This document shows, piece by piece, positions 1 through 64,000 of a stretch of 64,000 nt of DNA. The translations under genes were made by a program, and so were the position numbers. Every line of letters begins with the position of its first letter. Position 1 is the first letter of the stretch. The stretch is from a virus. The stretch spans positions 1-64,000 of the IMG/VR virus record IMGVR_UViG_3300010413_000025; one strand, 5' to 3'. A model generated the notes under the pieces. The model did no database searches and was not told the DNA's origin. It worked only from the letters and a program-made list of their open reading frames with translations.

Positions 1-1408
1 GCAGGGTATTGATCTTGTCCAGTTCCTTTTCGTACACGTACAGGGGGTCGACAGCGGCCTTCAGGGATTCCGCCTGCTGATCCAGCGCCTTCGCCAGCTT
101 CGCCGCCGCCTTCGCTTCAGCGTCCAGTTCCGCCTGCGTCTTGCCGGGCTTACCACCACCGCCGCCGGTATCTTTTGCCTGCTGGGTAGCAGGGGCCGGA
201 AGCCGGGCCGCCTTGTTGTAAATCTTGTCCAGCTTTTCGAATGCGTCAGTCGCGCCAGCCACCAGTTCGTCGTAAGTGTTGGCGAAATTTTCCTTGATTT
301 TGTTCGCTGAATCGCTGAACACCGCGCTGATTGTGTCGGCCGACTGCTGGAATTCGCCGTTCGCAAGCTGCACAATGGCAGCGGTGACGCCGCCGATGGT
401 TTCGCCCAGTACCTTAAAGTTTTCCCATGCAAGCTTGATCGGTGCAGTGACCAGATTCCACGCCTGCCCCAGAATGACAAGCGCGGTCGACATGACCTTG
501 ACGCCAGACGACAGTTCGTCGGTCGGCTTCAGGGTGTCGAACATCACGTGGCCCAGTTCGTCGATGAAATCGGTGATTTTGCCGATGACTTGTGTCACGC
601 GGGCGCCCACGCCCGACGTTTCAGACATTTTTCCGATGAACCGCGTGAAACTATTCCCCAGTTTCGTGAACGACTGACCCAGCGTTACGTCGGTTTTCGC
701 AAACTGCACGTCCAGCTGCGCGCCGCCCTTCAGGATAGCGTCGAAAAATTCCTTACTGGTAACCTTGCCTTTAACGACCAGATTTCGCAGCTTGCCGACG
801 GAACCACCTGCGGCATCCAGACCGCGCGCGGCGGCCTGCGCCAACGGAAACGCGCCTTCCAGAATACTGTTGAATTCTTCGGCCCGAACGATGCCGGACG
901 AAAACGCCTGCGACAGCTGCCGCAGTGCGCCGGACGCTTCCTGCGCGGACGTGCCGCCTACGGCCAGCGCCTTGCCGGTGGTTTCGACCAGCTTGTACAG
1001 TTGTTCCTGCGACGCGCCCAGTTCCTTGGCCGCGATAGACGCTTTCGAGAATAGGCCCACAGTCGCTTCCAGCGGCGTGCGGGTCTTCTGGGAAATTGCA
1101 AACAGCCGTTCCTGCGCGCTGGCCAGTTCGGCGGTGCTGCTGGTGACGACCTTCAGCTGGTTCGTCAGGCCCTGATATTCGTTTACGGTCTTGACCAGTT
1201 CCCTGACGCCGAAGGCCGCTGCCAGCGGCAGCGCGACCGCTTTCAGCTGGGACATGGCCAGCGACAGGGCTTTGGACTTTTTGGCGGCCTTGTCAAAGCC
1301 TGTCCCGGCCTTGTCGGACGCCTGCCGGATACTATCCAGCGAACGAACGACGACCTGCGCCCCACGCTGCGCAGGTTGCCCGTCTATGACAACTTCAAGT
1401 TCCGCCAT
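1..1408 (-). CDS. Tape measure protein, N-terminal 469 residues (runs off left edge)
   Basis: Translation from the ATG at 1408 (MAELEVVIDGQPAQRG) stays open to the window edge, so the C-terminal part is missing. The visible part is Ala/Gln/Ser-rich and largely helical, with phrases such as RLFAISQKTRTPLEATVG and ASGALRQLSQAFSSG that are typical of the tape-measure domain of siphoviruses. The protein would set tail length and act during DNA ejection. The gene overlaps the end of the preceding tail-chaperone fusion by 14 nt, the usual order G, GT, tape measure. The family call rests on composition, order and motif feel; no search was run. Confidence 0.85.
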   Translation of the reverse strand, partial: MAELEVVIDGQPAQRGAQVVVRSLDSIRQASDKAGTGFDKAAKKSKALSLAMSQLKAVALPLAAAFGVRELVKTVNEYQGLTNQLKVVTSSTAELASAQERLFAISQKTRTPLEATVGLFSKASIAAKELGASQEQLYKLVETTGKALAVGGTSAQEASGALRQLSQAFSSGIVRAEEFNSILEGAFPLAQAAARGLDAAGGSVGKLRNLVVKGKVTSKEFFDAILKGGAQLDVQFAKTDVTLGQSFTKLGNSFTRFIGKMSETSGVGARVTQVIGKITDFIDELGHVMFDTLKPTDELSSGVKVMSTALVILGQAWNLVTAPIKLAWENFKVLGETIGGVTAAIVQLANGEFQQSADTISAVFSDSANKIKENFANTYDELVAGATDAFEKLDKIYNKAARLPAPATQQAKDTGGGGGKPGKTQAELDAEAKAAAKLAKALDQQAESLKAAVDPLYVYEKELDKINTL

Positions 1409-2110
1409 TTTCCGCCCGCCAGTTCATGTAATGGCCATCTAAGACACTGACTAGACGGGTGAATTCGTCCATGTCGTCGTCCGTGAAGCCGTGAATCGTA
1501 GCGTAGGCCAGCATTTCACTGAACTGAATCCCCAGTGGCGCACCGAAAGTCCATGTGCGCGTTCTGTCAAGTGCCACGAACCCGTTCCAGTATTCTACCA
1601 GATGCGGGGGAATCGTGGGCCGCTTGCGCAGGGCAGTCGGCATCCTGCCAGTTTTGGCATAAACCTTTTCGAACGCGCCAAGCTTGGGACCGTATTCAAG
1701 GTTCCAAGTCAGGGCGCCTATTAGTTTTTTTCGTCTTCCTCGGCCTTGACCGACCGGTATGTTTCCATATTCCCGGCGATTTCCTGCACCAGCGCACTGA
1801 AATCGGGAATCGACAGGTATTCCACGGCTTTTTCCACGCTGTACGGCACGGGTTCGCCGCCTTCGGTCAGGCCGTCCCAGTTCAGCAGGATGGTCCGGGC
1901 CATGATCGCGTTCACGATGTCTTCGGCCAGACCGTCGTCCATAGTGCCGGACTCGACCTGTCGCTTGTAGGGCTTCATCGCTTCGCGCAGGGCCGCCTTG
2001 TGGGCCGGGTTATACAGCCGGGCGACCAGAAGCTTCGTGCCCTTTCCGATGTCGACCCAGACGCCGTTTGATTCCAGACTTTTGTCAGTTTTGAAATGTG
2101 AAATGTCCAT
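1395..2110 (-). CDS. Tail assembly chaperone GT-type fusion made by programmed -1 frameshift
   Basis: The upstream chaperone frame ends ...GAC GAA AAA AAC TAA at 1721. The heptamer A AAA AAC sits in the correct phase for a -1 slip. After slipping, reading continues CTA ATA GGC GCC ... (LIGALTWNLEYGPKLGAFEK) without a stop for 27 codons into the 82-codon frame that ends at 1395 (PTIPPHLVEYWNGFVALDRT). The product would be about 238 residues. An equivalent slip, just before the tape measure gene, makes the lambda gpG-T chaperone. The 82-codon frame has no convincing ribosome-binding site of its own, so it is best read as the T-like domain. Confidence 0.85.
1721..2110 (-). CDS. Tail assembly chaperone, G-type (unshifted product)
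   Basis: A 129-residue acidic protein (MDISHFKTDKSLESNGVWV) that ends in a charged tail, SVKAEEDEKN. It lies between the tail tube and tape measure genes, the normal place for the G-type chaperone that coats the tape measure during tail assembly. A Shine-Dalgarno sequence AGGAAG precedes the ATG. Its last codons contain the slippery heptamer that yields the longer fusion. A TTGACA hexamer at 2185-2190 (minus strand) may serve as the -35 of a promoter for this and the tape measure gene, because a terminator isolates it from the tail tube gene upstream. Confidence 0.8.
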   Translation of the reverse strand: MDISHFKTDKSLESNGVWVDIGKGTKLLVARLYNPAHKAALREAMKPYKRQVESGTMDDGLAEDIVNAIMARTILLNWDGLTEGGEPVPYSVEKAVEYLSIPDFSALVQEIAGNMETYRSVKAEEDEKN

Positions 2111-2218
2111 TCGGGCTTCCTGATATACGGTTGAAAAGATAATTCTACACTATCCGGCGAAGCGTATCTGCGACCCGGGGACCCTGTCAAATCATTAACG
2201 AAAAACAGAAAAAATTTG

Positions 2219-2247
2219 TTGTAATGCGCTAAAGGTTCCTGTAGGAT
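2219..2247 (+). promoter_or_regulatory. Sigma70-like promoter of the plus-strand cassette (early promoter family)
   Basis: TTGTAA, 17-nt spacer, TAGGAT. The spacer contains GCTAAAGGTTCCTG and the -10 is followed by GGTCGTTAAGG. The same spacer and downstream sequence recur at minus-strand promoters between 28 and 46.6 kb. It is the only copy on the plus strand and lies 43 nt before the first plus-strand gene. Confidence 0.75.
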
Positions 2248-2289
2248 GGTCGTTAAGGTAGTCAGAAAGATACAGAAAGGGGAAACAAA

Positions 2290-2487
2290 ATGGCACAGCA
2301 GATCGAAGTAAGCTTTCGCAAGGTTTTCGTTCAGGGCCTTTTGGGCGGTTTGGAAATAGACGAAACCATGCGGTTCGTGAACTGGGATGCGGCCTGCCAG
2401 TGGGCTGGCGGTGCGACGATGAACTTGAACTGCGACTATGTGATAACTGAAATGCACGGCCCGAACGGCGAAGTCGCGCACTTTTAA
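2290..2487 (+). CDS. Hypothetical small protein, first gene of the plus-strand cassette
   Basis: A 65-residue protein (MAQQIEVSFRKVFVQGLLGG) preceded by the ribosome-binding site AGAAAGGGGAAAC, the one used by the early minus-strand operons. It has no recognised domain; one Trp-rich patch reads NWDAACQWAGGATMN. It lies on the opposite strand from all neighbouring virion genes and has its own early-type promoter, so it is probably an accessory early gene inserted between tail genes. Function unknown. Confidence 0.7.
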   Translation: MAQQIEVSFRKVFVQGLLGGLEIDETMRFVNWDAACQWAGGATMNLNCDYVITEMHGPNGEVAHF

Positions 2488-2498
2488 GGGGAACGAAA

Positions 2499-2863: not shown

Positions 2864-2885
2864 AAAGGCCCCCATTGCGGGGGCC
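2862..2885 (-). terminator. Intrinsic terminator after the tail tube gene
   Basis: Perfect 7-bp GGCCCCC/GGGGGCC stem (2867-2873 with 2879-2885) and a 5-nt loop. On the minus strand it is followed by TTTTTATTTT. It lies 22 nt past the tail tube stop codon and separates that gene from the convergent plus-strand cassette. Confidence 0.85.
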
Positions 2886-6930: not shown

Positions 6931-7959
6931 TTAGAAGGACTTGATAACGACACCGGCCAAGTCTTTGACCGAATCCATTACGCTGTCCCAGTTGGTGCTG
7001 GTGGCCAGCGCCGCGTCGGTGGGGTTTACGCCGCCGTTGGTAACGTCCCACTTGAAGCCTTTCACGCCCACGTTGTAGGCATGTTCGCCCTGAAGGCGGG
7101 CAACAAGGTTTTCGTTACCGGTGACGACTTCGCTGTACATCAGCGGGCTTTCGCTGTCTTCCAGCACGCAGGCGCCTTCGACCAGACCCAGCGTCAGGTA
7201 CTGATTGCGCAGCGGCGAATCAGTCTGCTGGATCAGGGCGGCCGAATCGGTGACCAGAACCGGGCGGTTCAGGGTGACCGGGGTCGCGCTTGCGATGTTG
7301 AAGTTCGACAGGCCGTCGATGTTGCGGGTGATCTGATCCTTGACAAGATCGTAATACACCTTGCTGTGCATGACCCACAGGCCGACACGGTTCGCGGCAT
7401 CACCGAACAGCGCCAACGCATTGACAAGGTCGATAGTGTCCAGCGTGGTGGGCGGCGAAGCTTCACCATCGGCAATCAGCGCGGCCTGACCCTGCAAGGC
7501 GGCCTGAATCGAACGCAGACCTGCGTCCAGCTGGTCGACCTGCATTGCTTTCGCAATCTGGCCACCCAGAAGGAAGGACAGCGTCTGGAAATCGGCATTC
7601 ATGCCCAGTTTCTTGAAGCTGTCAATCGTCTGGTCGATAGGACCGATGCGCCGGTTCAGCTTGACGCTGATCAGTTCATCACCAGTCACCGCGCTGGCGG
7701 TCACTGCCGGGTTCGACGGCGAAGTGGAAACCTGCCGACGGTTGATCAGGCTGGACACGTTCTTGAAGAACGATTCCTGATGAAAGTCACCCATCCGCAT
7801 GGCGGTGACCAAACGAATCGTGTTCAGCGACGCGGCGTTGAATGCGTCGGTATTCTGAACAAGCGTTTCGACCATACCGCTGTGGACCAGTTCCGGATAA
7901 ATCAGACCTTCCGGAAGGCGGCCGCTGCCAGCAAAACTTTCGCGAGTACCAGTAGTCAT
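6931..7959 (-). CDS. Major capsid protein
   Basis: 342 residues from the ATG at 7959 (MTTGTRESFAGSGRLPEG); an in-frame TTG three codons upstream is less likely. Typical coat features are DQTIDSFKKLGMNAD, LWVMHSKVYYDLVKDQI and the C-terminal GVKGFKWDVTNGGVNPT ... TNWDSVMDSVKDLAG. It directly follows a scaffold-like gene and is followed by a strong terminator. The AGGGAG ribosome-binding site is one of the rare retained GAG sites. It forms the icosahedral shell. Confidence 0.85.
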   Translation of the reverse strand: MTTGTRESFAGSGRLPEGLIYPELVHSGMVETLVQNTDAFNAASLNTIRLVTAMRMGDFHQESFFKNVSSLINRRQVSTSPSNPAVTASAVTGDELISVKLNRRIGPIDQTIDSFKKLGMNADFQTLSFLLGGQIAKAMQVDQLDAGLRSIQAALQGQAALIADGEASPPTTLDTIDLVNALALFGDAANRVGLWVMHSKVYYDLVKDQITRNIDGLSNFNIASATPVTLNRPVLVTDSAALIQQTDSPLRNQYLTLGLVEGACVLEDSESPLMYSEVVTGNENLVARLQGEHAYNVGVKGFKWDVTNGGVNPTDAALATSTNWDSVMDSVKDLAGVVIKSF

Positions 7960-8801: not shown

Positions 8802-8952
8802 AGGTCCTTTACTCCCTAAAGGTAAGTGCGACGCCTGCCGCTAATTAGTGTTCAGACTGATATTGTGGTGGACTCTAAAAATTTTTGCAAGTGCAATTAA
8901 ATTTTAATTCGCTGGACCGCCTTAAAATTTCCCGGCCCGGACTTTAATCCGG

Positions 8953-30229: not shown

Positions 30230-30943
30230 TCAGTTCCCCCAGTTTTCGCGTACCCACGGGTCGGGCACTTCGTGCGGGTCCGGCTTGCCGTGGAACACGA
30301 CCACGCGCGCGTCCTTCGGCAGGCCCTTTCCCCGGCAGTGGTACTTGTAGGACACCACAAACCGGCGTTCGAAATTGGCTATGCTGTCCCGCAGTATGCG
30401 CCAGATCGCGCACTGGTCGCCGTGAAGCTTCGCCATGGCGCGTTCATCGTTCGCTTCGAATGTCCGGAACAGCCTGTGAATGTCCGGGTCCGTTACGTCG
30501 AACAGCATCGCGGACGAATTGTGCGCGCAGTGCGCCTTGTTGGGCGAAAAGTTTTCGACCATGATCAGGGGCTGGTCAGCCACTGCCCGAACAATCGGGT
30601 CCAGTGAACCGGTCAGGACCACGTCAAGGTCCAGATACAGCGTTTTCCCGCCGGGCATAATTTCCGGGTTGAACATGTTGAACTTTTGCCACCATGTGCC
30701 CCATTCGTTCATCGGCAGGATTCGCGTCACGCCGTCCGGAACTTCGTCGTCGGTGATGCAAAACATGTCCCAGCGAACTGTCGCGGGCATACAGCAGGCC
30801 ACAGAATCGCGCAGCCGGGCGACATACTTCGGGGAATACTTCGGCCCCCACTTCACGCAAACGACGTTCACGTGGTAGGGCTGCGGCCCCTGTTCGGCCC
30901 AGATCGGCGGGTTAAGGTTCGGCAGCGTCAGGTCCATGATCAT
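30230..30943 (-). CDS. Glycosyltransferase, GT8-like (copy 1)
   Basis: 237 residues. N-terminal strand NVVCVKWGPKYS, then TLYLDLDVVLTGSLDPI with DLD at 105-107, the metal-binding DxD of GT-A enzymes. Later motifs are WRILRD, and VVVFHGKPDPHE near the C-terminus (HGK.KP as in GT8). It should transfer a sugar from a nucleotide-sugar. Acceptor unknown; candidate acceptors are modified DNA bases, host LPS or virion proteins. Overlaps the FkbM gene by ATGA. Confidence 0.8.
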   Translation of the reverse strand: MIMDLTLPNLNPPIWAEQGPQPYHVNVVCVKWGPKYSPKYVARLRDSVACCMPATVRWDMFCITDDEVPDGVTRILPMNEWGTWWQKFNMFNPEIMPGGKTLYLDLDVVLTGSLDPIVRAVADQPLIMVENFSPNKAHCAHNSSAMLFDVTDPDIHRLFRTFEANDERAMAKLHGDQCAIWRILRDSIANFERRFVVSYKYHCRGKGLPKDARVVVFHGKPDPHEVPDPWVRENWGN

Positions 30944-31623
30944 TTCCCCGGGACAAAGATCAGGTCGCGGTGAATCGACGCGTGCAGCTTGTAGCCCATC
31001 ACGTCGACCAGCCAGCGTTCGGATGCGCCCACGCGGTGCCCGGTTTCCCGGTCCTGCGGCAGCGCCTTTTCTTCGATCATAATCACGGGCTGGTTCGTTT
31101 CGATCAGTTTCCGCGCACCCTTCAGTGCCTTCAGTTCCAGTCCTTCGATGTCCAGCTGGATCAGGCCCACGGGTCCCACGATGTCGCCAGACGCCACCAA
31201 ATCGTCCAGTCGGTATACGGGGACCTTTTCAGCGCCCGGACTTGGGATGCCTTCCTTCACTTCCTTGATGTAGTAGGCGCCAGCGTTCGAAATTTCACTG
31301 GGCGGCAGCTTCACTTCGCCGTAGCCCATGTGATCAGACAGCGCGCCACGGATCGGCGTCACGTTCGTGCGGTCTTCCAGATTCGTGGACAGGCACGCGA
31401 AGTTTTCGCGGTCGGGTTCGAACGTGTACACGTGGTGGAATTCTTTCGACATGACCCACGGCCACACGCCCATGGCCCCGCCCGCCTGAATGGCGACCGA
31501 TGCGCCCGGTTCTGCGACTGCGTCCATGGCCACGTTCAGGTCGTTAATCCAGCTGTTGACCTGTATCAGTTTCGTGTCTTCCTGATTCCAGCGCCACGAT
31601 TTGCCTAAAAATGAAATCATCAT
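30940..31623 (-). CDS. FkbM-family methyltransferase
   Basis: 227 residues. SVAIQAGGAMGVWPWVMSKE in motif I, VYTFEPDRENFACLSTNL in motif II, and PVGLIQLDIEGLELKALKGA with the LDIEG signature of FkbM enzymes, followed by PVIMIEEK. These enzymes O-methylate sugars and related groups, which fits the adjacent glycosyltransferase. Confidence 0.85.
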   Translation of the reverse strand: MMISFLGKSWRWNQEDTKLIQVNSWINDLNVAMDAVAEPGASVAIQAGGAMGVWPWVMSKEFHHVYTFEPDRENFACLSTNLEDRTNVTPIRGALSDHMGYGEVKLPPSEISNAGAYYIKEVKEGIPSPGAEKVPVYRLDDLVASGDIVGPVGLIQLDIEGLELKALKGARKLIETNQPVIMIEEKALPQDRETGHRVGASERWLVDVMGYKLHASIHRDLIFVPGK

Positions 31624-32273
31624 AATATTTCGTCCAGTTCTGCGGTTTCGAAAAAGTCCAGCGCCGAATCCGGCGTGCAGTTGATTATACGCACCCCTAG
31701 CGCGTCCGTGTCAATGGTCCGGAATACTTTCAGCAGGCCGGTGAATTCGCCGTTCGGCCCCACCTTCGGCCAGTGTTGCAGGGCCTTCGGATATTCGCCG
31801 AAATAGTGGCGCCCCTGCCCCGCCTTGTGCTTCGCCCGGTCATAGCCCGGCAGGTAGCGCATGTCGTAGCCGATCAGGATGAAATTCCGGGCGCCGTAGT
31901 GGTAGGCCAAATTCAGGATTTGAAACCCGGACGCATGGCCGTAGTGGATGTAGCCGGGGTCGGTCGAAAAACTGTCGCCCCACTTGCCCGGAATGTAGTT
32001 GATCCCGTAGCGGTCGGCCGTTGCCTTGTCCCACGTCCACTTGTCAGCCTTCGAATCACGCAGGGCCGCGCTGTCCTTGTAGTGGTCCCACCATTCGATG
32101 TTGCAGGCCATGTGCACGTCCAGCGGCGTTACCATAACAGCATTGTTCACCCCGAACACCCGGCACTGGTTCTGCTGCCGCGCGTAGCGCACGCGTTCCA
32201 GCTGTTCGACGGTAAGGGAAGGGCCGGTGCCGATGATCACGGCCGGATAGTCAGCGAAATTTTTGAAGGGCAT
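31620..32273 (-). CDS. DUF115-like protein (paralogue A)
   Basis: 217 residues. AVIIGTGPSLTVEQLERVRY, then VFGVNNAVMVTPLDVHMACN, then YIHYGHASGFQILNLAYHYG and FILIGYDMRYLPG. The GTGPSL strand-loop-helix and the GYDMR strand resemble the DUF115/Maf-type glycosyltransferase-like proteins. It shares all four segments with the next gene, so the two arose by duplication. Confidence 0.7.
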   Translation of the reverse strand: MPFKNFADYPAVIIGTGPSLTVEQLERVRYARQQNQCRVFGVNNAVMVTPLDVHMACNIEWWDHYKDSAALRDSKADKWTWDKATADRYGINYIPGKWGDSFSTDPGYIHYGHASGFQILNLAYHYGARNFILIGYDMRYLPGYDRAKHKAGQGRHYFGEYPKALQHWPKVGPNGEFTGLLKVFRTIDTDALGVRIINCTPDSALDFFETAELDEIL

Positions 32274-33075
32274 CTGTCAGACTCATTTTAGGGAACATGT
32301 TCAGCGCCGTGTTCGGCGTCGCGTTGACGATTTCAATCCCGTAGTCTTCGGGCTTTATCGTCGCATAATTTTGAACGAATCCGGTGTATCCACCGTTCCG
32401 CGCCAGTCCTTCAGGATGATCACCGAAAAAATGCTTTTTGTTGTTCACCACGCGCATGTTGTAGCCGCACAAAATAATTCGGTTAATCCCGAACAGGTAG
32501 GCCAGATTTATAAGCTGGTAGCCGCTGTTGTTTCCGAAATGGATCAGGTCCTGCTTTCTCGACAGTCCCTTTGCCCCGCAGCCTTTGATCCGCCGCAGGC
32601 CCGGGAACTGCGATTGCGGCATGTTCGGTTCCTGCGTCCACATTCCATGCGTGGTTTCGTATTCGCGGATATGTTCGAAGTGTTTCCGCCACCATGCGAA
32701 ATCGCAGGCATAGTGGACGTTCAAGTACGGCGCGATGCGATAGGCGTCATTGCACCCGAACAGGTAAAGTTCCTGCGTCAGCCGGGCGGCCATGATTTCG
32801 TCCATAACTTCGGGGGTCAGGCCGGGGCCGGTCGCCATCAGGACGGCCGCCTTGCCTTCGAAATCCCGGGGAATGGTTTCCGGCTTGATGGGGTCCGGCG
32901 GTGGGCTGCGCCTGTGCTGTCCGCGAACGCCAGCGGCCTGACGGGGCTGTGCCTTCGCGGGAAGGTCCTTGATCAGGGAAACAGGCCCGGGCGCCGCAGA
33001 CGGCCCCAGCTTCGGCCGCAGGTGGCGGTCTTCCGCTGTAGCACGAATATTTTTCAGTCGCTGCAAGCGAATCAA
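32251..33075 (-). CDS. DUF115-like protein (paralogue B)
   Basis: 274 residues. A basic/Pro-rich N-terminal extension (about 1-72) precedes AVLMATGPGLTPEVMDEIMA, LFGCNDAYRIAPYLNVHYAC, IHFGNNSGYQLINLAYLFG and IILCGYNMR, each aligning with paralogue A. Sugar- or nucleotide-sugar-dependent transfer is inferred from relatives and from neighbouring transferases. Lies directly downstream of DNA polymerase with a 4-nt overlap. Confidence 0.7.
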   Translation of the reverse strand: MIRLQRLKNIRATAEDRHLRPKLGPSAAPGPVSLIKDLPAKAQPRQAAGVRGQHRRSPPPDPIKPETIPRDFEGKAAVLMATGPGLTPEVMDEIMAARLTQELYLFGCNDAYRIAPYLNVHYACDFAWWRKHFEHIREYETTHGMWTQEPNMPQSQFPGLRRIKGCGAKGLSRKQDLIHFGNNSGYQLINLAYLFGINRIILCGYNMRVVNNKKHFFGDHPEGLARNGGYTGFVQNYATIKPEDYGIEIVNATPNTALNMFPKMSLTDALQKFR

Positions 33076-52131: not shown

Positions 52132-53628
52132 TTATAGCCACTCCGCTGGTTTATCTTTCGTAATTTCGTCTGCTATGTTCTTTTTTGATCGTAGCGCGTT
52201 AATTATTTTGCTGTCAACCGTCTTTTCCGCTTCGATGTCGATATACGTCACGTTCCGTTTCTGACCGATGCGGTGCGCGCGGTCTTCGCTTTGCAGTCGG
52301 GCTTCCAGCGAAAAATCATTGCTGTAATAAATCATCGTTGTGGCAGCTGTCAGGGTCAGGCCGTAGCCGCCCGAATGCTGCTGACCGACGAAAAACTGGC
52401 AAGTCGGGTCGTTCTGGAACCGGTCTATATTTTCTTCGCGCAGATGACGGTCGACGCCGCCATGGTAGGACACAGCCGCGCCCTTGCCGTACTTTTCTTT
52501 CAGGACGTTTTCGATTGCTTCCAGTTCGGCCCGGAACCGCGCCCAGATAATTATTTTTCCGTCCGGGTTCGCTTCCTCGACGATGTTCAGTAGGGCTTCC
52601 ATTCGCGGGTTTTTCCCGGGAATCGGTTCTGACGGCGCGAATTCGTCGGTCGGCAGGAAACCGCCCAGCACCTGCTGAAGCCGCAGCAGCTTCGTCAGGA
52701 CGTTTTGCACCGTGACTTCCCCTTGTCCCAGTTCGTACAGGGCTTTCGTGCGGATGTCCTTGTACAGCTTTTTCTGTTCGGCGGTCAGTTCCACCGGGTA
52801 GCGTTCGTATATCTTGTCCGGCAGGTCCAGACATTCGTTTTTCGTGATCCGGAAACTGTACGCCTGAATGTTGTCCACCAGTTCGTCCAGATTGCGATAC
52901 GACACCAGTTCTTCGAATTCGCGCGGCTTGCCCGTCTTCGGGTCGATCTGTTTCAGCTGGCGCCGGACCCATTCCGCGTATCGGTGCTTGAACGAATAAA
53001 AATTTTCGTACCCCAGTATGGCCGTGTTCAGGAACGCGAACTGCGCCCACGCATCCATGGGGCCGTTCGTGATTGGGGTCCCGGTCATGATGCGGCGGTA
53101 CTTGGCCCGCTTGCCCAGCCTGATCAGGGTTTTCGTCCGTTTCGACCCCGGCGTTTTTATCACGGTCGATTCGTCGATGATCAGCAGCGTGGGGAACGTG
53201 TTCAGGATGCTGGCCAGATATTTGGCAGCCTTGCCGGTCATGCCCTGCCCGAATGCTTCCACGTTCATGGAAATGATCCGCAGGCTGTTTCCGGCGTCCC
53301 AGATTTTGTCCAGCGCCTGCTGTTCCGGCTTGCGCAGGGTACTGGCCCACACTGCCGCCCGGTATCCGGTCCAGTCGGGCATGTGCGCGGGGACTTCGCG
53401 CAGTATCCAGTTCCGATGCACCCCGTTCGGCGCTATCACGACCACGGCCATGATTTCCCGGCGCGCCCACAGGTGCGCAGCCGTGTCGATGCCGACCTTC
53501 GTCTTGCCAGTTCCCATGCCCATTAGCAGGGCGAAGTCGGTTTTGTCGCGGCTTTTGTGGAACACTTCGCGCTGGTGGTCGAAGGGTTCGGTCTTGTAGT
53601 CATAATCGTGGTGCATTTCGGTCAGCAT
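52132..53628 (-). CDS. SNF2-type (SF2) helicase
   Basis: 498 residues from the ATG at 53628 (MLTEMHHDYDYKTEPFDHQR). Motif I LLMGMGTGKTKV, motif II LIIDESTVIKT (DEST box), RIMTGTPITNGPMDAWAQF, and motif VI QSEDRAHRIGQKRNVTYI. It is the first gene of the replication operon. SNF2-like enzymes are common in phages that encode AEP or family A replication systems; a recombination/remodelling role is likely. The start context GCGGGATGCTGAC is shared with terS. Confidence 0.9.
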   Translation of the reverse strand: MLTEMHHDYDYKTEPFDHQREVFHKSRDKTDFALLMGMGTGKTKVGIDTAAHLWARREIMAVVVIAPNGVHRNWILREVPAHMPDWTGYRAAVWASTLRKPEQQALDKIWDAGNSLRIISMNVEAFGQGMTGKAAKYLASILNTFPTLLIIDESTVIKTPGSKRTKTLIRLGKRAKYRRIMTGTPITNGPMDAWAQFAFLNTAILGYENFYSFKHRYAEWVRRQLKQIDPKTGKPREFEELVSYRNLDELVDNIQAYSFRITKNECLDLPDKIYERYPVELTAEQKKLYKDIRTKALYELGQGEVTVQNVLTKLLRLQQVLGGFLPTDEFAPSEPIPGKNPRMEALLNIVEEANPDGKIIIWARFRAELEAIENVLKEKYGKGAAVSYHGGVDRHLREENIDRFQNDPTCQFFVGQQHSGGYGLTLTAATTMIYYSNDFSLEARLQSEDRAHRIGQKRNVTYIDIEAEKTVDSKIINALRSKKNIADEITKDKPAEWL

Positions 53629-53655
53629 CCCGCCTTTGTGTTCTGTGAATGAATC

Positions 53656-53682
53656 GGGCGCCCGCACACTGGGGGGGCGCCC
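53656..53682 (-). other. Leader hairpin of the SNF2 operon
   Basis: Perfect 8-bp GGGCGCCC/GGGCGCCC stem with an 11-nt C-rich loop. It lies in the leader between the promoter at 53.75 kb and the helicase ATG, followed by GATTCATTC rather than a T-run. It may be an attenuator or an RNA stability element. Confidence 0.55.
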
Positions 53683-53729
53683 GTCCACCGGCCCGCATAC
53701 GCTGACCCCATGGGCTATGCCCGACACTT

Positions 53730-54701: not shown

Positions 54702-55226
54702 TTAGGGCCACAGGTTATACAGATTTGCAGCTGATTCTGTCAGGTCTTCGATTGTACCACGATTCTGCACGATGTAATCGCAGTACCCGGGGTCCACGCC
54801 AGCTTCGGACGCGTGCCCGGCGTTGTCCATGGCCTGCGGGTCCGGGCGTTCCACGCGGACGATCACGCCGCCGTGTTCCCTGATCCACCGGGCTTCGTTG
54901 TCAAAACGGGCGTCTGGGATGATCAGGTTCGCGTGCTTCAGCACCGCCTGTTCGGCCAGTAACAGCCACAGGTCCGGGTGCACCTTTTCGCGGCCCCATT
55001 CGGTGCCCAGCGTCTGCGCCAGATAGCGCGGCGACTTTCCCAGCCACGGAATCGGGGCTTCCTTCGCTTCCCGGTCGTCCCATACGGACGGGTCCAGATC
55101 AAACGCAAGTTCGATCATTCGCTTGATCGGGTCAGCGAACGAATGCCGCGCATAGCCCCTATCGGTGAAAAATTTCGCAAAAGTGTCTTTACCTGCCCCG
55201 GCTTTGCCAGTTACGCCAACTAACAT
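54702..55226 (-). CDS. Deoxynucleoside monophosphate kinase
   Basis: 174 residues (MLVGVTGKAGAGKDTFAKFF). P-loop GKAGAGKDT, then RHSFADPIKRMIELAFD, SPRYLAQTLGTEWGRE and IIPDARFDNEARWI. These are the motifs of the T4/T5-type dNMP kinases that phosphorylate several dNMPs, including modified ones in some phages. Works with the dCMP deaminase. The start overlaps the HslV-like gene by 38 nt. Confidence 0.85.
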   Translation of the reverse strand: MLVGVTGKAGAGKDTFAKFFTDRGYARHSFADPIKRMIELAFDLDPSVWDDREAKEAPIPWLGKSPRYLAQTLGTEWGREKVHPDLWLLLAEQAVLKHANLIIPDARFDNEARWIREHGGVIVRVERPDPQAMDNAGHASEAGVDPGYCDYIVQNRGTIEDLTESAANLYNLWP

Positions 55227-55677
55227 ATTTTCGCACCCTTTCGTCTTTGTTTAGATTGATCACCGTCAGGCCGTTGCCGGTCCCGGTGTCGTGCTTGGCC
55301 GCTATCTCTACAGCGCGGACCGCGTCCACGCCAGCTTCCATCGCGCCCAGTGCAAAGTCGGCCCCGCTGCCCCACGCTTCGAACTTGTCGAATACAGGCA
55401 TCGGAACCATGTTGCTATCGTAGGCGGTGACCTTCCCCGTGACAAGGTTCAGCACCACCGCTTCAGAATCTTCGTCTAACGACCAGTCGTCGTCCTTGTT
55501 GCTGCCGTTCTTCAGCCATTCACAGAACCGGATACCGGCGGACAGCGACCCGGTGATTGCCACTGCGTAGTCAGTGCCACGCACGCGCCACAGTTTTTCG
55601 CATAGCTTGCGCGCGCCCCCCGCTGTTGCCTGCCTGTCGGTGCACAGGACCCCGTCTTTCCACGCGACTGTTGTCAT
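55189..55677 (-). CDS. Proteasome/HslV-like threonine peptidase
   Basis: 162 residues. After Met removal the chain starts TTVAWKDGVLCTDRQAT. This aligns with HslV TT...DGQAT and provides the N-terminal Thr nucleophile and the conserved Asp; a Lys follows in ARKLCEKLWR. ITGSLSAGIRF and the late GSGADFALGAMEAG then NGLTVINL match the Ntn-hydrolase fold. No HslU-like ATPase is seen nearby. Substrate unknown; processing of virion or host proteins is possible. Confidence 0.75.
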   Translation of the reverse strand: MTTVAWKDGVLCTDRQATAGGARKLCEKLWRVRGTDYAVAITGSLSAGIRFCEWLKNGSNKDDDWSLDEDSEAVVLNLVTGKVTAYDSNMVPMPVFDKFEAWGSGADFALGAMEAGVDAVRAVEIAAKHDTGTGNGLTVINLNKDERVRKYVSWRNWQSRGR

Positions 55678-57215
55678 CGCCGCCAGCGCCCCCCGATAAT
55701 ATGCAGCAGGGTTCGCTTGCCGTTCGCGTAAATCACTGCGTCGGAATGCAGCCAGTTCGACGGCCCCCGGTTGTACTGGACCCGCAGGCGACTGTTCGTG
55801 CCGACCTGCATACAGCCTTCTTCGGTGCCCGGGCCATGGCCGTGGCCGATTATACTTTTGACGCCGATCCGCCGCAGGTTCATGATGCTTCCCCGGGACC
55901 CGTTCGGACCCAGATCGCCGTGCATCCCGGTTTCGATGCCCAGCACCATCAGGGATTCGTCCCGCTTCAGCAGGACTTTATTCACGGTCAGCAGGCGTTC
56001 GGCCCAGTAGTGGAACGGGTCGACCGTCCGGGCGCCCGCGTCGGTCATTTCCGTGTTCCGGACCATTTCCAGCGCGGTTTCCAGATAAAATTCCATGTGC
56101 GACGGGTCCTTTCGCCAGTCGGTTTCCCGAATCCAGCGTTCCAGACCTTCGTTGTGGTTACTGGGGACCATCACGTTTTCGAACCCTGCGCCGTGCTTGT
56201 TCACGAACGCGCAGGTCAGTTCCAGTTCCTTCGGGATGCTGGCCATGCCTGCACGGTGCTTCGCCAGCTTTATAAACGGGTTGTCGCGGTCGTGATGGTT
56301 CTGCGAATAGTGGTCGTACACGTCGTGCCAGATCAGCTTTTTCGGCTTCAGAACGGCCGTGATTGATCCCGGGCCGTTGAATGTAGCCTTGACCACGTCC
56401 GGGTCGATGAACTGCACGTGGGAATCGCCCATGATCAGGGCGGCGGCGGGCGGTGCATCTTCGACCCCGTCCGGCGTGTACTTTTTGTCCAGATCAATGA
56501 ACGTCCCGTTTTGCAGGGCGGAAATCTGGCGCATAAAGAACATGTCGCCGTCGACTTCGACCACCACCGCCCCGATAGTGTGGTGGAATTCGCCGCGCTT
56601 GCCGGTCGCCGTATCGGTGTAATTTTCCACCGTAACAGCACCGGTCGTCGTCATGATTTTGGGAAGCTTGCTTTGCGGGGTCGCAATCGACTTCAGCTGG
56701 ACTTTCGGGTGCGGCAGGATGCCGGACTTGTCGCCGGTGATCGCTTCGAACCCGGTCAGGGGCTGCGTGTTCGTCGGCTGCGTGCGGATGTCACCCAGCA
56801 GGATCAGGTTCCGGTTAATGTCGGCTCGGCTGGAAAACAGGTATTCGTGCAGTTCAGGCGCCCACCAGTCGTCGTCCTGCTGCTTCTGGCCCCAGACGCT
56901 TGTCGGGTTCTTGTACCGTATCGGCACGACCACCAGCTGCGCGCCGTTGTGGGCACAGTAGTTTTCCAGTGTAGCAAGGAATTTTTTATGTACTGGCGTC
57001 GCGTTCTGGGCGGCGGTGAAAACGTAGCGTTCGGCGGGCGGCAGTTTGCCTTCGTATTGTCGGTGGGTCGGTTCCTTGACAGGCTTCGCTTTCGACGGGT
57101 TCGCGGTCGTTTTGCCGCAGGATTTGCAGCGCCATCGGTTCTGGCGCCCCGTTTTGCGTTCCCGCCACCCATCCTTGACTAGCTTCCCCTGTTCACCGCA
57201 GTGCGGACAATACAT
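55674..57215 (-). CDS. Zinc-ribbon plus metallophosphoesterase protein, T5 A1-like
   Basis: 513 residues. The N-terminal zinc ribbon has CPHC at 3-6 and CKSC at 30-33. The C-terminal half carries the calcineurin-like order GDSHVQF (263-269), HDVYDH (297-302), SNHNE (352-356), MHGDLG (431-436) and GHGHG (457-461). The layout recalls the T5 pre-early A1 protein, which is needed for host DNA degradation and DNA transfer. Here it lies beside lysis and peptidase genes, which is unusual for a pre-early gene. Nuclease activity is inferred. Confidence 0.7.
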   Translation of the reverse strand: MYCPHCGEQGKLVKDGWRERKTGRQNRWRCKSCGKTTANPSKAKPVKEPTHRQYEGKLPPAERYVFTAAQNATPVHKKFLATLENYCAHNGAQLVVVPIRYKNPTSVWGQKQQDDDWWAPELHEYLFSSRADINRNLILLGDIRTQPTNTQPLTGFEAITGDKSGILPHPKVQLKSIATPQSKLPKIMTTTGAVTVENYTDTATGKRGEFHHTIGAVVVEVDGDMFFMRQISALQNGTFIDLDKKYTPDGVEDAPPAAALIMGDSHVQFIDPDVVKATFNGPGSITAVLKPKKLIWHDVYDHYSQNHHDRDNPFIKLAKHRAGMASIPKELELTCAFVNKHGAGFENVMVPSNHNEGLERWIRETDWRKDPSHMEFYLETALEMVRNTEMTDAGARTVDPFHYWAERLLTVNKVLLKRDESLMVLGIETGMHGDLGPNGSRGSIMNLRRIGVKSIIGHGHGPGTEEGCMQVGTNSRLRVQYNRGPSNWLHSDAVIYANGKRTLLHIIGGRWRR

Positions 57216-58369: not shown

Positions 58370-61300
58370 TTATTCAGCCGTCGGAACGGTGCTTGTGAAT
58401 GGTTCCATAACGCCCCACGCGTACAGTTCGCCGGTGGTGGTGTCTTGTATCCTGAAAAAGATCGGTCGACCCACCCGGTGAAAATGCAGGATATTTACGT
58501 GGTGCCCAGCCCAGTTCGACGGGCTGCCGTTCTGCAAATTGTTGAAAATATATTGCGAATCTGGGGACGACAGGGAATAGTCGTGCACCAGCTGCGCAGG
58601 GGACCCATCATCGGACAGAATAAATAGCTTGCCCTGATCACCTGACCCCGTGCCTTCGTCGAACTGTGCGCCTACCGCGAACTTCAGTGTCAGGTTCGGG
58701 ATCACCTGCGGACTTCCGGGCGAACCGGCCTTGAACACTTCAATGCCCGGCGACACGACTGTGCCGTACGGGATGCGACCCAAATATTTGTCTGGGGCAT
58801 AGTCGGCGTCACTTACTAGCTGGAATTCATGAATGCACGCGTCGCGCGATTCCTGCCCCGGGCTGGTCAGGCGATGTTTCGCTAATATTTCGATGCGAAG
58901 CTGGGCGCCATTAGGCTGTAGAACCATCGCCATTAGATCATTAGGCGGAATGTTCTTGAGATAGTTGGTCGGATCATCGGCCGGGGTTTCATATTCATAG
59001 ATGAAATTCGGGCTGCCGATGTTCGGGCTTGAAATGTCGTACATGCGGATTATATAGGACAATCCGTCGCCTGCGTCGGTGGTGCCGGGATTGAACGTGG
59101 TCCCGTCGCTGTTTTCACCCTTCACAGATTTTTGCGCGCCTAGTGTCCGCCAGTTCCGGCGTGTCCATGACACCTGCATATAGGACGACGTGGCGTACAG
59201 CGGCACCGATTTATTGTATCTACTGCTGCCTATTGTAATTTCATTCGGGCATAGCGGCGCGTTTACACGAAAGCCGTCATGGATTCGTGTCACGTTCGTG
59301 ATGGTGGCCGATCCCACGCCCAGCGCCCCGCTTTCCTGCGTCGACGGGCATATTTTCGCGGCCACGTAGAAGTTGTTCGTAAATTGTTCGGACGAAATGC
59401 TGGCGCCGCCAAAAGATACGAACCAGACCAGCGAACCAGCGGGCCAGTCCTGCACGCGGGAATCAAGGGCGCCGCGCCAGCAATCGAACAGCCTAATGCC
59501 GGTAACTAGCGGGGACCCACCGACGCTTTCTACTGCCTGCGTGTACAGTATGAATTCACCAAAATCGCGCAGTTGATCCGGTGAATTCACAGTGGGCGGC
59601 GTTATGTATACCAGTGACAGCAGGTCGTCAATTTCACTTTCCGATAAGGCGTCCGCGTCGATCAAATCAGCCAGTGATTCACCGGGAAGCGGGTCCACAT
59701 CATAATCGCCAGCCCCCTGCGTCGCGACGCTTCCGCTTAACGGGCCGGGCAAGGCTGACCGCAGCTGCCCCACCAGAACGAAGTTCGGATTCGTGCCGTT
59801 GTTTATGAATGTGCCAGTGATCGCACCGGACGCCGACGTTGCTTCATGCGTGTAAAGGTCGTATTCGTCGCCAGCGCCACCGGTAAGACGCGGCAAGGCT
59901 GTGATGCGCGGCGTTTTGTCCGGATTGTCCGGGTCTTGCAGCTGCATCAGTCGCGGCGTTTCGAATATCACTTGGTCTTCCGGGTCTTCGGCAGTAACTG
60001 TCTGCGTCGGTGCCGACCAGCTGCTGTCGATAGGGTCGTGGAAACTGGCCGCCTGCGTGGTGAACACGTCTTCAACTGCGTCGATGGTGATTTTGTTATT
60101 CAGTAGTTCGCCGTAATTGACGCGCGTCGCGCGCATCAGCAGGTCGGTGATGCCGTACAAGTCCCACGACAGCAGGAACAGGTCGCCCGGCTTGATGGTG
60201 TACAGTTCGCGGTTCACTGTCAGGGTAGCTTTCGCCAGCGGCGTGGCCAGATTGCGCAGGTCCCGCCATGCGATGTAATTCGCAAGCGCGGCGTTCTTGA
60301 CGCCCATAAAATTTTCGGTAACAGTGATGGGCGCGCCCTGAATGATTTTGTTCGCCATGTCCTGCGCCAGCCCGTAGCTTGTCGCGTAGTTCTTGCCGGG
60401 GTCAGCGTACTGAACCCGAACAATGTTTTTCGTTTCGGACCACGATCCACGGCTGAATTCGACTTTCTTGCAGTTGGTTTCGTCGATTGACAGCAAAGAC
60501 GACAGCGGGCTGGGAATATCCGCTTCGCGGATCAGTTTGAACGTGTACTGGCCGGTCGTGATGTCGCGCTGAAGAACGCCGTCGCACTGCCGTTCGATTT
60601 CCTGAATGATCTGTTCAGTTTTTTTCGGGTTATCCAGCAGCGCGGAAAATCCGTTTCCTTCCGCCGCCAGCGTAGCGCCCACAGCGGCCAGTGTCGTGGT
60701 GTCGATGTCGCCAGTCGACCGGGCCAGACCCCATTCGGTGTTCGTCAGGATTTCATACAGGACGTTCATCGGGTTCGCGTCAAAGTTATTTATCAGCGCA
60801 TCAGCGCCCAACGATAGGCCGTCGGGAATGCGGCGAACCACGAACTTGAACGGACGCAGCGACGGACTGTTGCCGATGTAAATTTGTTCCGCTACAAGGT
60901 ACGCCGTCCCGCGATATGCGGGCAGGATGTCAGGGGAAAACGTCACGGCCCCTTCCAGATAGGTGCTTTTCACCTGCGTGCTACTGCCGGGAAACATGGT
61001 AAACGTGCCACTGATTCCGCCACTGTCCTGACCGAACAGGGTCGGTTCGTTGACTGTCACTGACCCGCTTGCGACCGCTGACAATGGGGACGTATCGTAA
61101 ATAGATTCGTCGTCGACAAGAATTTGCATCAGGCCGTCGTCGGCGCCAGTCATCGGACCACGGCAAAACGCGAACTGAATCCCGACGTAGTATTTATAGC
61201 CGACCGTGACTTTCTTCGATGAAAACATGCCGGTTTTGATCTTTTCGCGAATGCGTTCCGTGCGCAGATCACCGTACCAGATAATATTCGGCGCCGACAG

Positions 61301-61465
61301 CTGGACCGTTCCCCACAGTAGTGGGACCACGCGCCCTTCAGTGGCGGTCGGAAAATTGAAATCGCCCAGTCCTGACGGCCGGGCGTTTTCGACTTCGGGT
61401 TTCGGTGCGAACAGTTCGGAAAGAATGAACGACGCGACCCAGATCGCTAGATATACCCAAAACAT
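58370..61465 (-). CDS. Tail tip attachment / host-specificity protein (gpJ-like)
   Basis: 1031 residues, the largest gene in the window. The hydrophobic N-terminus MFWVYLAIWVASFILSELFA and the RVVPLLWGTVQLSAPNIIWY segment are typical of the Phage-tail_3/gpJ-like tip proteins. The middle is beta-rich, and the C-terminus (about 640-1031) is likely the receptor-binding, variable part. It follows the BR0599-type gene as in GTA-like tail tips. Directly upstream of the lysis genes. Confidence 0.85.
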   Translation of the reverse strand: MFWVYLAIWVASFILSELFAPKPEVENARPSGLGDFNFPTATEGRVVPLLWGTVQLSAPNIIWYGDLRTERIREKIKTGMFSSKKVTVGYKYYVGIQFAFCRGPMTGADDGLMQILVDDESIYDTSPLSAVASGSVTVNEPTLFGQDSGGISGTFTMFPGSSTQVKSTYLEGAVTFSPDILPAYRGTAYLVAEQIYIGNSPSLRPFKFVVRRIPDGLSLGADALINNFDANPMNVLYEILTNTEWGLARSTGDIDTTTLAAVGATLAAEGNGFSALLDNPKKTEQIIQEIERQCDGVLQRDITTGQYTFKLIREADIPSPLSSLLSIDETNCKKVEFSRGSWSETKNIVRVQYADPGKNYATSYGLAQDMANKIIQGAPITVTENFMGVKNAALANYIAWRDLRNLATPLAKATLTVNRELYTIKPGDLFLLSWDLYGITDLLMRATRVNYGELLNNKITIDAVEDVFTTQAASFHDPIDSSWSAPTQTVTAEDPEDQVIFETPRLMQLQDPDNPDKTPRITALPRLTGGAGDEYDLYTHEATSASGAITGTFINNGTNPNFVLVGQLRSALPGPLSGSVATQGAGDYDVDPLPGESLADLIDADALSESEIDDLLSLVYITPPTVNSPDQLRDFGEFILYTQAVESVGGSPLVTGIRLFDCWRGALDSRVQDWPAGSLVWFVSFGGASISSEQFTNNFYVAAKICPSTQESGALGVGSATITNVTRIHDGFRVNAPLCPNEITIGSSRYNKSVPLYATSSYMQVSWTRRNWRTLGAQKSVKGENSDGTTFNPGTTDAGDGLSYIIRMYDISSPNIGSPNFIYEYETPADDPTNYLKNIPPNDLMAMVLQPNGAQLRIEILAKHRLTSPGQESRDACIHEFQLVSDADYAPDKYLGRIPYGTVVSPGIEVFKAGSPGSPQVIPNLTLKFAVGAQFDEGTGSGDQGKLFILSDDGSPAQLVHDYSLSSPDSQYIFNNLQNGSPSNWAGHHVNILHFHRVGRPIFFRIQDTTTGELYAWGVMEPFTSTVPTAE

Positions 61466-61467
61466 TT

Positions 61468-62289
61468 TTATTCCTTCGTCAGCTGTTGTTTGTTGAACGG
61501 GTTAATCGACGGCACGAACGGAAACCCGCCATAATTTAGCACATTATTGAACTTCTGCGCGCAGGTAGTCACGGAATGATCGCACCCCTGATACGCGTAC
61601 AGGGTGCCACCAGACACGTTTTGCTTGAACGGGTACAGGATGCGAACCTGCGTCCCTGACTGGTCGATGATCAAGCGCGATTCCGATCCGTCCGGCAGCG
61701 AAACATACCCACCGATGAACGGGGACCCGGTAGTTGGCAGCGCCTGAATGGTCAGCAACACGTCATCGGTTACGCCTAGCACCTTTCCGCTGTGCAGGTA
61801 GGACCCTTCAGACAGGCCGCAGCCGCTGTCGTACAGAATATGGTTGCACAACCCCTGAAAACTGAACCGTGGCATTTCCCGGGTGAACAGTTCGTTGTTC
61901 GGTATGCACCGCAATTCGCAGATTTCGTCCTTGAATGCGACACTGGCCACGTATCCCGCGAACATGATAATCGACGCGGTGGCCGGGACCGAATTCGGCT
62001 GGATGCGGTACACGGTCACGTTCATGATGTACGACGGTTGCACGGCGATGAAGTTCGTCGCAATTACGTCGTCGGTGGGAATCTTGATGGTGATCGAAGT
62101 CGACTTTTGTTCCTTCGCTTCCTGATATGCCGTGCGCTTTATGGCCACCGGCGTGTAGTCGACACCGCTGTATGTCACGGTCCCTTCGGAACTGGTCCGA
62201 CGGTAGGTCGTCCCCGAAATCTGGAATTCGTACAGTTCAATCGGGCGCGAATCTTCTATGCTGACTTCAAGCTGGTCTAAGGTACTCAT
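61468..62289 (-). CDS. Tail tip protein, BR0599/DUF2163 family
   Basis: 273 residues. The C-terminal GCDHSVTTCAQKFNN followed by NYGGFPFVPSINP is the hallmark of the BR0599 family, with paired cysteines near CDH and TCAQKF. CNHILYDSGCGL provides another conserved Cys pair. It forms the distal tail/hub in GTA-like siphovirus tails. It overlaps the next upstream gene by ATGA. Confidence 0.88.
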   Translation of the reverse strand: MSTLDQLEVSIEDSRPIELYEFQISGTTYRRTSSEGTVTYSGVDYTPVAIKRTAYQEAKEQKSTSITIKIPTDDVIATNFIAVQPSYIMNVTVYRIQPNSVPATASIIMFAGYVASVAFKDEICELRCIPNNELFTREMPRFSFQGLCNHILYDSGCGLSEGSYLHSGKVLGVTDDVLLTIQALPTTGSPFIGGYVSLPDGSESRLIIDQSGTQVRILYPFKQNVSGGTLYAYQGCDHSVTTCAQKFNNVLNYGGFPFVPSINPFNKQQLTKE

Positions 62290-64000
62290 ACGTCATACGC
62301 CCCGCTAACCGGTACATTTATTTCGCTGTCGATCTGGTCGCCCATTAGATCGGTCCATTTATGTAACAGGTCCACGGTATCGCTGTCAAATCGCGACTTG
62401 ATCATGAACTGAATCGACAGGACGTTTGCGGCGGTGAAGTCCATCGGAAAGGTCGGCGAAACAGACAGCCGTTCCACATCGGTGGATACTTCAGTGCTGG
62501 AAACGATGTCTAAAAACATGTAAGTCTGACCGTCTTCCCAGTTGTGCGGACTGCCAATAGGAAACGGGCTGGCGACCGACGGCATGTTGTTCGGGTCAAA
62601 CTGTATCACGATGGTGGTGTACGGTTCGCGCGACTTCATGAACTGCGTGTACCCGACGTTTGTCACGTCTATGGACCCTGACCCGACACTGACGGCGGCC
62701 TGCAATTCCAAATCCTTGCCGAAAGTCGGCAAATAAAACGACGTTTGCTTGCCGTGCAGTGCATACAGCAGGTTCCGCACTTCCCAGCTTTTTTGTGCCG
62801 TTTCCACGTTCCAGCGTTTTTCGCTGGTGGGCGTCGACCTGTCTTCGGTGGACGACTGTGCAATTTCGCCGGTATCGCCGTCGATTCTGGTGATCTTTTT
62901 CCGGAAGTTTTCCCGAATTTCGTTGTCCATAAAGTTCAGGTCGTCGATCACAGTGCGGCCATTCCACGATTTGAACGCCGTCGCGTCTTCGGTAGCGCGC
63001 GCATCGTTGTCGACAGACAGGAACGACATTGTCACTTTTTGCTGTCCAGCTGGCAGGCGGGATCGCGCCACGCCATCGCTGACCACGCCCGGGACCACAG
63101 GGACCAGCACCGCCTGCCCGGCTGTATACGCGTTCTGAATGCCCGACGTGAACGTGACCTGCGCCGGGGACGCCGACACCGCGCTGATTTCCAGTGTGTC
63201 GGCAGTGCGATTCCCGTCCGCGTCGTATGCAATCAGAACCGCCAGACCGCCAACGCGGAATTCAGCAAAATCCGTCGACGTGATCGAAACCACCGTGTCA
63301 CTGATCACCGCATTAGCCGTCAGTAGTCGCGCATCCCACCACATCGGAACGCCGAAAACACGGCTGTGCCAGTCGAAAATAAACGAATTGAATTCATTCC
63401 GATCATAATCGCGCGGCAGTAGTGCTTCGAATTCGATTTGCTGACGTGGAAACCGGCGAAGTGCCACGCGCTGTTCAGTGCCGTCGGCCGCCTTCATAAT
63501 GTCGGTTTTCCATACCAGCCGTTCTTTGACGCTGCCAGTCGGCGAAAAACCGTACAAAATTATGCGCGTTCCGGTGATCGGAACGCTGACGCTAGTCGTG
63601 TCAAAGGCGAAGTCCAGTGTCCCGTTGATCGTAGGCGGACCCGACGGGGAAATTTGAACACTTACCACAAAAGACGTTTGCGCCACAATAGTTTTCGGTA
63701 AAGTGGGCAGGTTCAGGATAGTGATACCGCCGCCAGCATTGTTCGTGAATGTCGTCCATGTGCGGTCGTCAGTGCGGTAGGCACTGTACAGTTCAAGGTC
63801 CTTCAGAATGTTCGACACGACGTTGCCCAAGTCTAGCCGCTGCGGCTTAACGTGAATTCGTTCGAACCAGTCGAATCCGATCCCCTGCCCGTCGTATGGC
63901 GCCTTGCCTATATTCTTTTCGCGGGCGTGGCGGTTCCCCCGCTGCGTATTCGCAAACACGTCGACGATGTTCTGCGCACGAAGTTGTGTCGGCCGAAATA
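62286..64000 (-). CDS. Distal tail protein (5' end outside the window)
   Basis: The frame is open from the right edge (FRPTQLRAQNIVDVFANTQR is the first readable segment) to the stop at 62286, so the true start lies beyond 64000; the GTG at 63959 is probably internal. 571 codons are visible. Beta-rich, with SFIFDWHSRVFGVPMWWDAR and LLYALHGKQTSFYLPTF, a pattern of GTA ORFG12-like/DUF2460-type distal tail proteins. Position before the BR0599 gene supports this. Confidence 0.7.
   Translation of the reverse strand, partial: FRPTQLRAQNIVDVFANTQRGNRHAREKNIGKAPYDGQGIGFDWFERIHVKPQRLDLGNVVSNILKDLELYSAYRTDDRTWTTFTNNAGGGITILNLPTLPKTIVAQTSFVVSVQISPSGPPTINGTLDFAFDTTSVSVPITGTRIILYGFSPTGSVKERLVWKTDIMKAADGTEQRVALRRFPRQQIEFEALLPRDYDRNEFNSFIFDWHSRVFGVPMWWDARLLTANAVISDTVVSITSTDFAEFRVGGLAVLIAYDADGNRTADTLEISAVSASPAQVTFTSGIQNAYTAGQAVLVPVVPGVVSDGVARSRLPAGQQKVTMSFLSVDNDARATEDATAFKSWNGRTVIDDLNFMDNEIRENFRKKITRIDGDTGEIAQSSTEDRSTPTSEKRWNVETAQKSWEVRNLLYALHGKQTSFYLPTFGKDLELQAAVSVGSGSIDVTNVGYTQFMKSREPYTTIVIQFDPNNMPSVASPFPIGSPHNWEDGQTYMFLDIVSSTEVSTDVERLSVSPTFPMDFTAANVLSIQFMIKSRFDSDTVDLLHKWTDLMGDQIDSEINVPVSGAYDV

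Follow-up and report, generated by a model that had tools for sequence, protein, structure and literature searches.

Graded loss of GAG/CTC trinucleotides from the genomes of a tailed-phage family, with a host-imposed defence as the tentatively favoured cause

The virus genome considered here is IMG/VR record IMGVR_UViG_3300010413_000025 (67,191 bp; G000), of which bases 1–64,000, referred to below as the window, were examined for a depletion of the trinucleotide GAG and its complement CTC that extends over its whole length (1–64,000). The window carries 105 predicted genes, nearly all on the minus strand, and is 89% coding. Family matches include head proteins (a DUF4055-type portal, a Mu F-like head protein and a Terminase_6N large terminase) and replication proteins (a family A DNA polymerase, an AEP-type primase, and SNF2 and UvrD helicases), along with a GH108 endolysin, a spanin, tail proteins and a dCMP deaminase. 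Judged from its sequence, the virus is a tailed phage with no close cultured relative; the top matches of its portal are ~40% identical and lie in Bordetella, Xanthomonas and Pseudomonas phages.

The plus strand of the window contains 16 GAG and 53 CTC triplets by exact count, 69 in total, close to the ~60 that a first-pass annotation had estimated by hand. A dinucleotide model predicts 1,594 sites and a uniform expectation ~2,000, giving an observed-to-expected ratio (O/E) of 0.043 under the former; Markov simulation yields 1,593 ± 40 (z = −38). No other 3-mer comes near this depletion; CAA/TTG, which ranks second, has an O/E of 0.63. No site occurs between 28,168 and 32,282, an interval that includes the 30.0–31.0 kb segment the annotation had described as empty, and the distribution of survivors over 8-kb bins shows no significant regional heterogeneity (p = 0.27). 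The annotation had also proposed counting by strand, frame and non-coding region, and the depletion stands in each. In codon phases 0, 1 and 2, the O/E is 0.055, 0.061 and 0.065 for sense GAG and 0.016, 0.010 and 0.040 for sense CTC. Non-coding DNA holds 15 sites on both strands, where 153.5 are expected, and an alternative gene-finding rule returns values of 0.03–0.06 in all six strand/phase classes. Most survivors are GAGT/ACTC, as had been noted (39 of 69; O/E 0.12, against 0.02–0.03 for GAGA, GAGC and GAGG), and this excess persists within genes away from starts (0.093 versus 0.013–0.031).

Codon choice in the window depends on the neighbouring base. The glycine codon GGA is used in 2 of 566 cases before G and in 165 of 987 before other bases, while serine is encoded by TCN in 6 of 243 cases after C and in 594 of 709 after other bases. 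The dipeptides affected by GAG avoidance nevertheless occur at a normal rate (996 versus 1,017 expected). When synonymous codons are shuffled so that proteins and codon usage are held constant, 584 ± 19 codon-spanning GAG/CTC sites are expected, and 22 are observed; the depletion is not a codon preference, as the annotation had argued. Ribosome-binding sites are affected as well. GAG lies upstream of 7 of the 105 predicted starts and GAGG upstream of none, with AAGG (46), AGGG (37) and GGGA (36) found in place of GAG. One of the surviving sites falls in a ribosome-binding site on the minus strand (8802–8819), where CTCCC at 8812–8816 reads GGGAG. Since both strands, every phase and non-coding DNA are hit and the purge is synonymous, the object of selection is double-stranded DNA. 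At this level, purifying selection acts against GAG/CTC in the phage family, and the purge has been reached through synonymous and codon-pair changes and through re-spelled ribosome-binding sites. A cause acting on messenger RNA, such as a RegB- or MazF-like enzyme, is ruled out because it would spare sense CTC, which is depleted at least as much as sense GAG.

Relatives were gathered through the tail protein of the distal tail module g100–g104 (58370–61465, minus strand) and through the primase, A1-like and capsid proteins. Most of them are fragments, and O/E values are rough for contigs under 6 kb. The GAG O/E is 0.04–0.06 in the window, G005, G004, G008, G015 and L131, 0.14 in G006, 0.24–0.34 in G002, G003, G007, G025, G026, G028, L183 and L184, and 0.40–0.69 in G018, G021, L133, L134 and L136. 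Non-depleted members (G001, G035, G023, G029, L137, L141, L143–L146, L185 and L190) have values of 0.82–0.97, and the long genomes among them (G001, G035, G023 and G029) lie at 0.90–0.97. Thus, the strength of the depletion is graded across lineages from 0.04 to 0.69, and in the window phage and several relatives ~70% to 96% of GAG triplets are gone through silent changes. The annotation had named the same depletion in unrelated DNA as an outcome that would speak against its observation; unrelated phages and the non-depleted relatives show no such depletion, with O/E values of ~0.7–1.35. Some phages that share the tail module (L232–L235, L244 and L247) display the reverse of the window family, with GAG over-represented at 1.27–1.35 and AAG down to ~0.44–0.54.

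We mapped the depletion onto a tree of the major capsid protein (6931–7959, minus strand) and mapped both the depletion and the presence of the A1-like gene onto a second tree, of the SNF2-type helicase (52132–53727, minus strand). In the capsid tree, strong depletion occurs in clade A (the window and its kin; support 100/98) and in clade B (G028, L142 and their kin; 100/99). Clade C is non-depleted (0.85–0.93) and groups with clade B at 89/91 support; the comparison with related phages that the annotation had suggested therefore finds the trait graded within the family and absent from clade C and the outgroups. The helicase tree is concordant, placing G028 with L183/L184 (0.24–0.27) as sister to L185/L190 (0.87–0.95) with supports of 97–99%. 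Because clades A and B are parted by non-depleted clade C, either the trait arose at least twice or a single gain was followed by its loss in clade C.

The window genome avoids other motifs besides GAG. CCWGG is absent, with 120 sites expected, and 20 palindromic hexamers are missing although each is expected 4–47 times, among them GCCGGC (0 of 47), CCGCGG (0 of 26), CGATCG (0 of 21), CTGCAG (0 of 20) and GACGTC (0 of 19). Interrupted palindromes are also missing, including CGAN8TCG (0 of 39), CAGN5CTG (0 of 35), GACN6GTC (0 of 26) and CCAN5TGG (0 of 17). Other palindromes stand at or above expectation (CAGCTG, 74 observed versus 73 expected; GCGCGC, 85 versus 79; GAATTC, 48 versus 36). G028 is similar in style, with CCWGG at 0 of 67 and 15 hexamers missing, whereas in non-depleted G001, G035, G023 and G029, CCWGG is normal and one hexamer is missing from each. 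In strongly depleted family members CCWGG is wholly or almost wholly avoided, and the O/E values of GAG and CCWGG rise together over 32 family loci (rho 0.70, with no phylogenetic correction). Because the GAG depletion travels with avoidance of CCWGG and palindromes, GAG loss seems to belong to a broader habit of escaping restriction. If O/E is taken, in a simple model, as the outcome of an equilibrium between mutation and selection, the scaled cost S = −ln(O/E) of a site comes to ~3.2 for the window phage and ~1.1 for the less depleted G002/G003; on that assumption, the cost of each GAG site is modest, unlike that of CCWGG, of which none is left.

Several further motif biases were observed in these and other phages. 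Counted over the whole record (1–67191), the palindromes with no occurrence number at least 20 among hexamers and a dozen among interrupted forms. Of the latter, CGAN8TCG and CAGN5CTG look like bipartite restriction targets, and the list of absent palindromes could be used to fingerprint the restriction enzymes of the host. Across the same record, CCAA/TTGG is depleted (160 versus 637 expected; CCAAY 42 of 326, CCAAR 118 of 311), its O/E rises and falls with the GAG value among family members (rho 0.80), and CCAA is possibly a second short non-palindromic target. AGAAG/CTTCT is nearly gone from G004 (L100–L102; 4 of 50 expected) and G008 (L109–L110; 1 of 24) and only halved in the window phage, which suggests an extra asymmetric restriction target in the G004/G008 sub-lineage. 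Four tail-module phages with a GC content of 67–68% (L226, L230, L216 and L223) have CCAA O/E values of 0.00–0.08 and strongly over-represented CCWGG. In Rhodobacter phage RcCronus (L071–L072, KR935217), 29 palindromic hexamers with expectations of at least 4 are absent or nearly so and CCWGG stands at 2 of 91; RcRudolph, from the same host strain, does not avoid CCWGG (188 versus 141 expected). The GAG O/E of RcCronus is 0.35, but it is context-dependent and asymmetric between sense strands and phases, and so does not clearly represent the same phenomenon.

A candidate for a phage-side cause is encoded on the minus strand at 55674–57215. This 513-residue protein belongs to PHROG 1745 (‘DNA transfer protein’) and is a homologue of T5 A1. 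It has an N-terminal zinc ribbon (C3, C6, C30 and C33), which most of the other A1 N-termini compared do not resemble, followed by a core predicted to be a calcineurin-like metallophosphoesterase. Residues invariant among the A1 proteins are of the metallophosphoesterase type (G263-D264, H266, D298, N353-H354, H432, H458 and H460). An AlphaFold model has a mean confidence (pLDDT) of 77 and a predicted template-modelling score (pTM) of 0.78; it was built from 11 sequences, a 5-sequence version being poor (pLDDT 37). The model matches viral calcineurin-like phosphoesterases with E ~1e-6, and its top match in the PDB, Vps29, which has a metallophosphoesterase fold, is weak (E 2e-3). The predicted fold and conserved residues are consistent with a metallophosphoesterase. 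Next to the gene, at 55189–55677, lies a homologue of HslV-family peptidases (PHROG 1040) that is kept in several depleted members of clade A.

The annotation had raised the possibility that this A1-like protein cuts host DNA at GAG, its zinc ribbon reading the motif, while the GAG-poor phage genome would be self-protected. T5 cannot degrade host DNA without A1 (PMC13250531, as a note in the T5 record also states), and the predicted metallophosphoesterase fold, the metal-site-like conserved residues and the zinc ribbon would fit a DNA-cutting enzyme, although as of 2021 no nuclease activity of A1 had been reported (PMC8541194). The zinc-ribbon form is present in both depleted clades (the window, G004/G008, G006, G002, G003 and L183/L184) and missing from non-depleted G001, L185 and L190, absence being firm only for long contigs (G028 and G001) or contigs that span the A1 position. 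However, G028 (64 kb) is depleted throughout (0.27) and lacks A1, with the genes that flank it in relatives present. Conversely, GAG stands at an O/E of 0.88 in L114, a locus of a Parvibaculum assembly that encodes tail sheath and capsid proteins and represents a phage or prophage, even though its zinc-ribbon A1 is 51% identical to that of the window. Other A1-bearing phages have values of 0.69–1.06 or an effect of codon usage only; the deficit in CM1 and XacN1 falls mainly in codon phase 0 and was set aside as an effect of this kind. A1 is thus correlated with the depletion within the family but is neither strictly necessary (G028) nor sufficient (L114), and we reject it as a simple cause. 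Loss of A1 from G028 could be recent, and selection on a prophage may differ, so a role for an A1 nuclease is kept as an unlikely though live alternative. CCWGG avoidance was likewise rejected as an A1 effect: of 18 phages or groups with A1, the 11 that show it are dispersed over the A1 tree, and the pattern is that of ordinary restriction avoidance.

The other alternatives place the cause in the phage's own enzymology, in mutation or in adaptive immunity. The phage's own machinery for replication, recombination or packaging might include an enzyme that nicks or stalls at GAG, with no host defence involved. Such a need would suit a graded, additive cost confined to one family throughout which replication genes are common, but G001, G035 and G023 have homologous polymerase, helicases, primase and terminase and are non-depleted, and the depletion co-varies with restriction-site avoidance; we regard this reading as improbable. 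Mutation of GAG/CTC by a deaminase, base-modifying enzyme or polymerase, also suggested in the annotation, could draw on the over-representation of GAA/TTC and CAG/CTG and on the phage-encoded dCMP deaminase. GAA and CTG are, however, also plain synonymous alternatives, and a mutator acting at one position is disfavoured because it should leave more GAG where the protein would change, and those phases are not spared. The equal codon phases, the context-dependent rechoice of codons and the unchanged dipeptide frequencies contradict a mutational origin, which we consider very improbable. At least as remote is avoidance of GAG as a protospacer-adjacent motif (PAM) of a type I-E-like CRISPR system. 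GAG is among the interference PAMs of Escherichia coli type I-E (PMC4246573), but others in the same set show no depletion (O/E: AAG 1.20, AGG 1.04, ATG 0.92), published PAM depletion is slight (PMC4246573), and spacer-by-spacer action would not be expected to purge ~1,500 sites.

Comparison of gene content found no nuclease-sized gene common to all depleted genomes yet missing from all non-depleted ones. What G028 and the depleted phages uniquely share is limited to small open reading frames (82–114 residues, with 1–2 matches each) or pieces of structural genes, and tail module g100–g104, common to the depleted clades, is also found in non-depleted phages such as G009 and L199. As no other phage gene fits, an outside, host-side cause is the simplest reading. 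The phage carries no evident protective DNA modification. A capsid search of 754 sampled genomes from two proteobacterial classes returned distant homologues and no close relative.

We therefore favour, at a probability of roughly 0.48, a host-imposed defence that acts on DNA at GAG or close by, each site carrying a low probability of damage and the cost being additive. Hosts of the depleted lineages would impose this cost, with a low chance of damage at each GAG site summed over ~1,600 potential sites, and the phage would escape by site loss, as it appears to have done for CCWGG and many 6-bp palindromes. A small additive cost over that many possible sites suits low-probability damage at a frequent motif. 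We hold still more tentatively the specific proposal that these hosts carry an undescribed defence whose target is the 3-bp GAG itself, recognized with low per-site probability, and that it drove a purge of up to 96% that included ribosome-binding sites. Of the host-side causes offered in the annotation, a nuclease or restriction system is the best supported, given the synonymous purge at the DNA level, its occurrence in two clades and its company of CCWGG and palindrome avoidance; the PAM explanation is unlikely.

Several observations weigh against a host-imposed defence. One gain and one loss could account for both depleted clades. In capsid clade D, CCWGG is mostly at 0 yet GAG only at 0.64–0.85, and in L133/L134, CCWGG is normal yet GAG is at ~0.6. 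Apart from one exception, zinc-ribbon A1 and depletion go together within the family, a pattern that a host cause alone leaves unexplained. A literature search, which most subscription journals lay outside, found no described system with a GAG target, the nearest being G*AGC/G*CTC and C*AG.

Among known styles of mechanism, the best fit would be nicking or a phosphorothioate-type (Ssp/Dnd-like) system, in either case directed at a 3-bp target. Phosphorothioate systems use the 3-bp motifs C*CA and C*AG but modify only 10–15% of these sites, and phage DNA that lacks the modification is damaged by SspFGH (PMC8092258, PMC11931770). The likeness to Ssp/Dnd defence (C*CA, C*AG, G*AGC/G*CTC) lies in the 3–4-bp motifs, the dispersed partial modification and the damage to unmodified phage DNA; unlike the G*AGC/G*CTC motif, GAGA and GAGG are depleted here as much as GAGC. 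The resemblance is one of mechanistic style and was drawn from the phage genome. Chlorovirus nicking enzymes also have 3-bp targets, Nt.CviQXI cutting R/AG and Nt.CviPII /CCD (PMC7019647). Here too recognition is of 3 bp by a virus-related system, and GAG falls within RAG, but RAG also covers AAG, which is over-represented in the window, and both enzymes are encoded by algal viruses. T5, in which A1 also serves second-step transfer, shares the A1 homologue with the window phage but not the depletion (GAG O/E 0.90). Avoidance of type II restriction–modification targets such as CCWGG resembles the present case in that sites are lost synonymously in lineages under restriction pressure; it differs in that the GAG target is 3 bp and asymmetric, the loss is graded and 69 sites survive. 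We know of no type II enzyme with a GAG target, and to our knowledge hardly any known restriction site is as short as three letters. Motif avoidance is a known kind of adaptation; that a 3-bp target should be avoided so strongly appears to be new.

Elsewhere in the window, a cluster at 30230–32838 encodes a glycosyltransferase-like protein (PHROG 1962), an FkbM methyltransferase and an MptE-like protein; it could have a role in DNA or surface modification and is kept in non-depleted relatives too.

For the phage, these results mean that a motif can be escaped by silent recoding despite the loss of the glutamate codon GAG, the leucine codon CTC and the usual Shine-Dalgarno core. For the host, a 3-bp target would lie near the lower limit for self/non-self discrimination, with about one site per 32 bp to protect. 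The graded, near-complete loss of the motif, set beside non-depleted relatives, provides a natural experiment for finding the responsible system, which could prove to be a new DNA-recognition enzyme with a short target.

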